Source: Planctomycetota bacterium (GTDB taxonomy: Bacteria > Planctomycetota > Planctomycetia > Gemmatales > Gemmataceae). Taken from it: a stretch of DNA of 60,165 bases. A program made the translations under genes and the position numbers. The stretch spans positions 1-60,165 of the forward strand of contig VGYC01000018.1 of assembly GCA_016873095.1 (NCBI GenBank), written 5' to 3'. Under the pieces are notes generated by a model. It was not told where the DNA came from, ran no database searches, and saw only the letters and a program-made list of their open reading frames with translations. Within the stretch, counting starts at the first letter, position 1. Each line of letters begins with the position of its first letter. This document shows, piece after piece, positions 9,216-38,383 of the stretch.

Positions 9216-9290
9216 CATTCCCTCCTCGGTTGCCGACCGCGAGATAACGAAGTGACCACGACCTCGCAAGGCGAAAGCCCTGGTCGGAAC

Positions 9291-37735: not shown

Positions 37736-38305
37736 TTATTCCCGGACCAACTCTTCGATGTGCTTGCGTAGATGCATGTCGCCCTTGGCCCCTTTCCAGT
37801 TGAGTTCGCCGGACCAGCCCCAGCGGGCCACGCCGCGCTTGTCAATCAGGTACACCGAGGGCCAGTAGCTATTGAAATAGCGCTGCCACATGGTTCCCTT
37901 GTTGTCGACGGCGACCGGAAACGTCAAACCGGCCTCCTTCAGCTTGGCCCGCAGGCTATCGATGTTCTTCTCGCCTTCCGTCTCCGGCGTGTGGATGCCA
38001 AGCACAACCACGCCCTTGTCCTTGAAGTCTTTCCAGATGCCCTTGTACCAAGGGTAATTGCGAACGCAGTTGATTCAGCCGAAGGCCATGAAATGCACGA
38101 CGACGACCTTGCCCCGCATACCCTTCATGGTGAGGGGCTCGCTGTTGATCCATTCCGCAATGTCGGCGAACGCCGGCGCATTCTGCTTGCCGCGAATCTT
38201 GACCGGCTTGCGCTTGCTCAGATCCTCGTCTCCCTGCATCGCGGCCGAAGGCCCGACGAGCGTGAATGCGACGAACAAGATGACGCCGACAACTTTGCTG
38301 TGCAT
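37736..38305 (-). CDS. Secreted thioredoxin-fold protein, candidate selenoprotein (UxxC)
   Basis: Read through an in-frame TGA (38077-38075), this is a 189-residue redoxin/TlpA-like protein. A signal peptide covers about 1-22 (ending GPSAA), so it acts in the periplasm. The active-site strand reads KVVVVHFMAFG, then UGA, then INCVRNYP. The UGA is residue 77 and Cys80 follows, giving UxxC where relatives have CxxC. Downstream come VVVLGIHTPE, FPVAVDNKG and the cis-proline segment YWPSVYLIDKRG, all intact. GGAGGA lies 4 bases before the ATG. It sits 78 bp after a sulfatase. The alternative is a TGC-to-TGA nonsense mutation or sequencing error. Confidence 0.75.
38040..38077 (-). promoter_or_regulatory. 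Candidate bacterial SECIS element with recoded UGA
   Basis: The UGA is at 38077-38075. Twenty nt later, CCCUUG pairs perfectly with CAAGGG (38054-38040) around a GUA loop. The apical loop starts with G about 26 nt after the UGA, which fits the known bacterial pattern of a small hairpin with G in the first loop positions, roughly 16-37 nt downstream. The hairpin is also simply coding sequence (NYPWYKG), so it needs testing. Confidence 0.55.
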
Positions 38306-38383
38306 GTCTTCCTCCGTCCGCTAAACGACGACAAGGCGACGGCTTGCGCGGGGACTCGGATTCCGGAACGGCGCTGGCGGGAG

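Follow-up and report, generated by a model that had tools for sequence, protein, structure and literature searches.

A DipZ-like redoxin gene of a planctomycete with an in-frame UGA at the active site, very probably read as selenocysteine

We analysed a 60,165-nt stretch of planctomycete DNA (contig VGYC01000018.1 of assembly GCA_016873095.1, the whole of which is called the window below) and found on its minus strand a gene that appears to be broken by a stop signal; the gene is almost certainly whole instead, its UGA being read as selenocysteine (Sec) at the active site. We hold it very probable that the product is a single-domain thiol:disulfide oxidoreductase of the thioredoxin fold, likely exported, with Sec as the first active-site residue (UINC), and that the whole 189-residue protein is made. 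The evidence consists of the frame itself, homology that continues through the UGA, conservation, a SECIS-type hairpin and the presence of selA, selB and selD, together with a fold obtained by prediction. For Sec insertion, export and redox chemistry we infer a mechanism in which SelB carrying Sec-tRNA-Sec would bind the hairpin that closely follows the UGA and deliver Sec at that codon, so that the 189-residue protein would be completed. Outside the cytoplasm the selenolate of Sec77 would attack a substrate disulfide, and Cys80 would resolve the selenenylsulfide.

The reading frame and the predicted protein

The minus-strand frame opens with an ATG at 38305-38303 and comprises 76 codons before a TGA at 38077-38075, followed by 112 codons and a TAA at 37738-37736; apart from UGA codon 77 the frame 38305-37736 holds no further stop. 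The first-pass annotation, made from the letters of the sequence, had described one continuous frame interrupted solely by a TGA at the place of the first active-site cysteine and intact for 112 codons past it, and this description proved exact to the base. When the window was scanned for frames that cross a TGA (at least 40 codons before it and at least 50 after it, with GC3 over GC2 by more than 0.2 on both sides), 14 were obtained, among which the frame with UGA codon 77 had the strongest coding signal on both sides (0.43 and 0.46). The other 13 were judged by eye to be shadows. The features of the locus are as follows.

37736..38305, minus strand: probable selenoprotein gene for a likely exported, DipZ-like or TlpA-like redoxin of 189 residues, Sec77 included (frame open but for a single TGA; PF00578; homologues aligning across the UGA)
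38311..38315, minus strand: candidate ribosome-binding site GGAGG (sequence, by eye)
38237..38305, minus strand: putative N-terminal signal peptide, about residues 1-23 (read by eye; low pLDDT there)
38075..38077, minus strand: UGA codon 77, very probably read as Sec, first residue of UINC (all 13 close Cys homologues have Cys here; three other genomes have UGA)
38066..38068, minus strand: codon of Cys80, the presumed resolving residue in UINC (present in each of the 17 aligned homologues)
38040..38054, minus strand: bSECIS-type hairpin CCCUUG-GUA-CAAGGG, UGA-to-loop spacing 26 nt (agrees with published rules; stem pair exchanged among UGA homologues)
37859..37861, minus strand: codon of the presumed cis-proline Pro149, ahead of strand 150-154 (invariant Trp-Pro; place in the predicted model)

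The window protein matches PF00578 with 46.3 bits (gathering cut-off 26). No NCBIfam family scored it above cut-off: ResA (NF002854) reached 54.3 bits against a curated cut-off of 170 and StoA (NF041202) 38.6 against 210, although the fold is that of the ResA, TlpA and CcmG thiol:disulfide reductases. The predicted structure is a thioredoxin fold (pLDDT 89.8, pTM 0.82) with residue 77 placed just before a helix at 78-81 and Pro149 before a strand at 150-154. Judged by eye, the N-terminus resembles a signal peptide, which makes export and a periplasmic location probable.

The best profile match of solved structure is the thioredoxin-like domain of DipZ from Mycobacterium tuberculosis (PDB 2hyx, 5cyy; E 2.2e-39). 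In the fold comparison, too, this C-terminal domain came first (Z 22.9, rmsd 3.3 over 160 residues, 33% identity), tied with SOQ1 (7djk, Z 22.8) and ahead of SPOA0173 (Z 22.0) and NHLRC2 (6gc1, Z 20.9). The active-site motif is SCINC in DipZ and CCINC in NHLRC2, for which no activity was seen in an insulin assay (both from the available part of PMC6107167). The window protein has INC at the start of helix 1, Trp-Pro before strand 150-154 and U for the first C, all features of a DipZ-like domain; the INC-type motif is common to both proteins, with Cys in DipZ and Sec in the window protein. The solved DipZ chain has about 330 residues and a further domain, whereas the window protein is one domain of 189 residues. 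The architecture of DipZ, in which the domain sits at the C-terminus of a larger protein, is absent from the window frame, and the product is a DipZ-like single-domain redoxin, not DipZ, with U replacing the first C of the motif. SOQ1 and NHLRC2 combine a related thioredoxin-like domain (CCINC) with an NHL propeller, which the window protein lacks; a separate thioredoxin-NHL protein with the motif CUINC is encoded elsewhere in the same genome.

Homologues and other UGA redoxins

Homologues were sought in 392 genomes of the phylum, 59 relatives and GTDB contigs, the last contributing one locus. We aligned the 17 closest, window gene included (E <= 5.8e-36, plus the single GTDB-contig locus). 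The alignment excludes 20 weaker rows of the phylum search, by eye mostly NHL-type CCINC proteins (L031 and L049 among them are without the Cys pair), and 16 weaker rows of the search in the 59 relatives, three of which were also in the phylum search.

The aligned proteins run across the UGA. Residue 77 is Cys (CxNC) in all 13 close Cys homologues, a point that the first-pass annotation had proposed to check, and codon 77 is UGA in four genomes: the window genome (G000), G415 of the same family, G430 of another family of the order, and G442 (JACPPF010000038.1), a Planctomycetota MAG whose isolate name points to groundwater. Three genomes besides that of the window thus share the UGA, with protein identities of 55-70%. 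Every one of the 17 aligned homologues has Cys80, and the Trp-Pro that contains Pro149 is likewise invariant. Genes neighbouring the four UGA homologues look unrelated by eye, and plasmid records hold relatives at <60% identity.

On the tree the four UGA rows form a single clade nested in the Cys rows. Support for this clade is moderate (81/73), and its position suggests one change from Cys to Sec in the family; since the four UGA genes are related, they stand for few independent events. Comparison of the window gene with that of G442 gave dN 0.17 and dS 1.0 downstream of the UGA, and dN 0.27 and dS 0.58 for the 50 codons upstream of it; synonymous sites were saturated in most other pairs. The downstream part, for which decay had been considered, is conserved instead, and judged by these rates it is under purifying selection.

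The gene is one of several of its kind in the genome. PF00578 (AhpC/TSA) has 28 matches there, 11 of which contain TGA, two of these twice. By eye every such TGA lies at the active site, and over the matched stretch the 11 genes have no other stop. Their motifs, with types assigned by eye, are GGU (Prx-type), UPFC, UTAC, UGGU, URIU, UIPC, UINC, CUINC and three deiodinase-like SFTU/SLTU. The Prx-type GGU gene (L124, C81:10762-11160) immediately precedes selB-selA and runs in the same direction. The UGGU gene (L136, C23:9605-10036) and the URIU gene (L137, C172:10630-10977) have two in-frame TGA codons with two codons between, each followed by a 6-7 bp hairpin. The CUINC protein (L151, C1:55858-56163) is the thioredoxin-NHL protein mentioned above (NHL 8.2e-23), a Sec form of the NHLRC2/SOQ1 type, and has a Cys paralogue with the motif CCINC (L140).

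Relatives served as a control, with 150 of their 189 PF00578 matches listed, counted by hand, and TGA counted irrespective of position. Where selA had no match at E <= 1e-30, in four planctomycete genomes, TGA was present in none of the 62 matches listed (of 81): 0/15 in G105, 0/20 in G373, 0/12 in G087 and 0/15 in G369. Five relatives with selA had TGA in 16 of 71 matches listed, namely 6/17 in G442, 5/15 in G430, 3/12 in G414, 1/8 in G415 and 1/19 in G392. In G433 (L055, L074) selA is above cut-off, but the homologue of the window gene has Cys and TGA is present in 0 of 17 matches listed; Sec use of G433 is elsewhere or being lost.

The hairpin and the decoding machinery

A hairpin with a perfect 6-bp stem and a 3-nt loop (CCCTTG-GTA-CAAGGG, 38054-38040) begins 20 nt past the UGA, where the first-pass annotation had placed it. 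Rules published for bacterial SECIS elements give a loop of 3-9 nt with G in the first two loop positions, a stem of 4-16 bp, a UGA-to-loop spacing of 16-37 nt and an MFE of at most -7.5 (available part of PMC13188914). The bSECIS check at this UGA came out in agreement with them: the loop is 3 nt (GUA) with G first, the stem 6 bp and the spacing 26 nt, and the MFE is -9.8 for the 53 nt starting at the UGA. The folding energy of these 53 nt is ordinary, however, as 62 of 200 shuffles fold as well (z -0.50), and energy compared with synonymous recoding does not single out the hairpin in the four UGA orthologues (z -0.15 to -1.81). The window hairpin stands out only by its loop and spacing, by comparison with Cys genes and by an exchanged stem pair.

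For the comparison with Cys genes, hairpins were scored under the loop and spacing limits of PMC13188914, with unbroken stems only and a cut-off of 12 set in the script, a rule drawn up after the result for energy under synonymous recoding was known. The score was at least 12 at 14 of 14 UGA sites (4 orthologues and 10 paralogues of the genome) versus 2 of 22 Cys sites (13 orthologues and 9 paralogues; Mann-Whitney P 1.3e-7, the rows not being independent). The nine Cys paralogues are those with CxxC seen among the genome's 17 TGA-free PF00578 matches, the other eight of which were unused. The score of the window hairpin was reached in 1.6% of synonymous-recoding trials.

The exchanged pair joins the third base of a Pro codon to the middle base of the codon that lies three codons downstream. 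Among the UGA orthologues these sites covary, with CCU and AAG in the window gene and G442, and CCC and AGG in G415 and G430, so that the pair is kept as U-A or C-G; the exchange is probably one event on the tree. The closest Cys relative of the UGA clade on the tree, that of G433, has CCC with AAG, a mismatch that breaks this stem pair. The stem of G415 has five pairs. Most hairpins of UGA redoxins in the genome have a loop with G and then U.

The assembly of the window genome comprises 8.36 Mb in 548 contigs and is 95.5% complete. It contains adjacent selB and selA on contig C81 (381 and 571 bits) and selD on contig C117 (287 bits), all above curated cut-offs and without stops, in line with the search for these genes suggested at the outset. 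selA is above cut-off in all four UGA genomes; for the 13 genomes with Cys homologues it is above cut-off in 6, below cut-off in G333 and without a match in 6.

The same suggestion extended to selC, the tRNA-Sec gene, and here the outcome was divided: it is whole in all three UGA relatives (G442, G415 and G430, with 73, 69 and 71 bits; ARAGORN and Rfam), but no whole gene was found in the 548-contig draft by RF01852, by two patterns read by eye, by blastn of the G442 gene or by ARAGORN, run on the sel loci and on contigs with tRNA-Sec pieces. Just downstream of the intact tRNA-Sec gene of G442 there is a 562-residue frame (L121, 259-1944, minus strand) that looks by eye like a tyrosine recombinase and has no Pfam match, and about 1.5 kb downstream of that of G430 there is a UGA-containing AhpC/TSA match (L123, C5:90416-92390). 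In the RF01852 search of the window genome, 150 of 1102 first-look candidates were scored, which gave 17 matches, three of them over cut-off. Eight of the 17 were checked by ARAGORN: five were tRNA-Ser or tRNA-Leu alone, one a clustered tRNA-Ser and one a tRNA-Gly, and at the contig-end match L005 ARAGORN reported no tRNA.

Two pieces of a tRNA-Sec gene were seen. On contig C6, positions 70503-70546 (L112, L119) carry the first 40 nt, to the anticodon loop, beyond which the sequence is not tRNA-like by eye; another 8-13 kb along are genes for BrxA, BrxB and BrxC (Pfam). On contig C242, positions 9228-9245 (L113, L120) are an 18-nt exact match to the tRNA-Sec 3′ end (E 0.07), perhaps by chance. 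Nucleotides 41-77 of the tRNA are in neither piece. Elements that insert themselves into tRNA genes usually cross over in the anticodon loop or the T loop, and as a rule they restore one whole copy. We prefer to see the C6 piece as a remnant left by an inserted element, with the whole selC copy unassembled, because selA, selB and selD are intact and 11 redoxin genes carry UGA. In the lineage of the window genome, elements may integrate at the tRNA-Sec gene.

The same C6 piece, running into unrelated sequence with the Brx genes beyond it, and the lack of a whole tRNA-Sec copy in the draft would also fit a very recent loss of Sec decoding by the strain: a mobile region would have inserted into the tRNA-Sec gene and broken it, and the UGA genes, selenoprotein genes until recently, would now be truncated. 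We regard this, the chief competing explanation, as very unlikely, given that selA, selB and selD are free of stops, that the 11 UGA redoxin genes have acquired no other stop over the matched stretch, that in a draft of this completeness and contig number a whole selC copy may be unassembled, and that integrating elements tend to restore one.

Reading the UGA as Sec also fares better than two explanations that dispense with Sec altogether. As TGC and TGA are one base apart and the genome is a draft of 548 contigs, a Cys codon might have mutated or been misread, leaving a dead gene or a protein that truly has Cys; independent genomes largely contradict this, the same TGA being present in three of them at 55-70% protein identity, and the absence of another stop, the downstream rates (dN 0.17, dS 1.0) and the ten more redoxin matches in the genome with an active-site TGA all speak against it, so that we give it very little credence. 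In-frame TGA in many redoxin genes might likewise be expected if the organism had reassigned UGA to an ordinary amino acid. We find this scarcely conceivable: TGA closes many of the window's long frames (in a list that includes non-coding shadows), the G442 homologue itself ends in TGA, internal TGA occurs in the genome's redoxin matches only at active-site positions (by eye), and selA, selB and selD are present. The proposal that the protein contains Sec, as a UxxC redoxin, is supported by the Cys homologues, the shared UGA, the hairpin, selA, selB and selD, and purifying selection, with a gap at selC.

Relation to known selenoproteins

Planctomycetes with Sec machinery and putative selenoproteins have already been published (available part of PMC4807772). 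The selenoprotein families listed in the accessible part of PMC13188914 include a Prx-like thiol:disulfide oxidoreductase (PF00578, UxxC/UxxU) and a Redoxin family protein (PF08534, UxxC), which share with the window protein the Pfam superfamily, the UxxC motif and Sec, the likeness being one of family and motif only. The first-pass statement that selenoproteins of this type are hardly described in planctomycetes therefore needs tempering. UxxC selenoproteins of PF00578 are already known, and the window protein adds a member, within a redoxin-rich selenoproteome. The terms 'NHL', 'DipZ', 'cd03012', 'UINC' and 'CINC' are absent from the main text of PMC13188914, and among the publications listed by literature searches none was seen to name DipZ-like or NHLRC2-like Sec forms; earlier notice is possible in the supplement of PMC4807772 or in the groundwater paper cited in PMC13188914.

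On balance we lean towards a broader picture, in which Sec has replaced the active-site Cys in a large part of this lineage's redoxins (11 genes or more, two of them with two UGA), among them Sec forms of DipZ-like (UINC) and NHLRC2/SOQ1-like (CUINC) proteins, neither of which known selenoprotein families include by name, and in which the tRNA-Sec gene has served as the insertion site for a region with BREX-defence genes. Annotation software that treats every UGA as a stop would split such genes, and the redox biology of these planctomycetes would be misread. The hairpins of at least 11 UGA redoxins in one genome form a set for testing how planctomycete SelB reads the loop. The UINC and CUINC proteins provide natural Sec/Cys pairs for a conserved family that includes DipZ, SOQ1 and human NHLRC2; as the chemistry of this family is unsettled, comparison of Sec and Cys forms could reveal the role of the INC motif.
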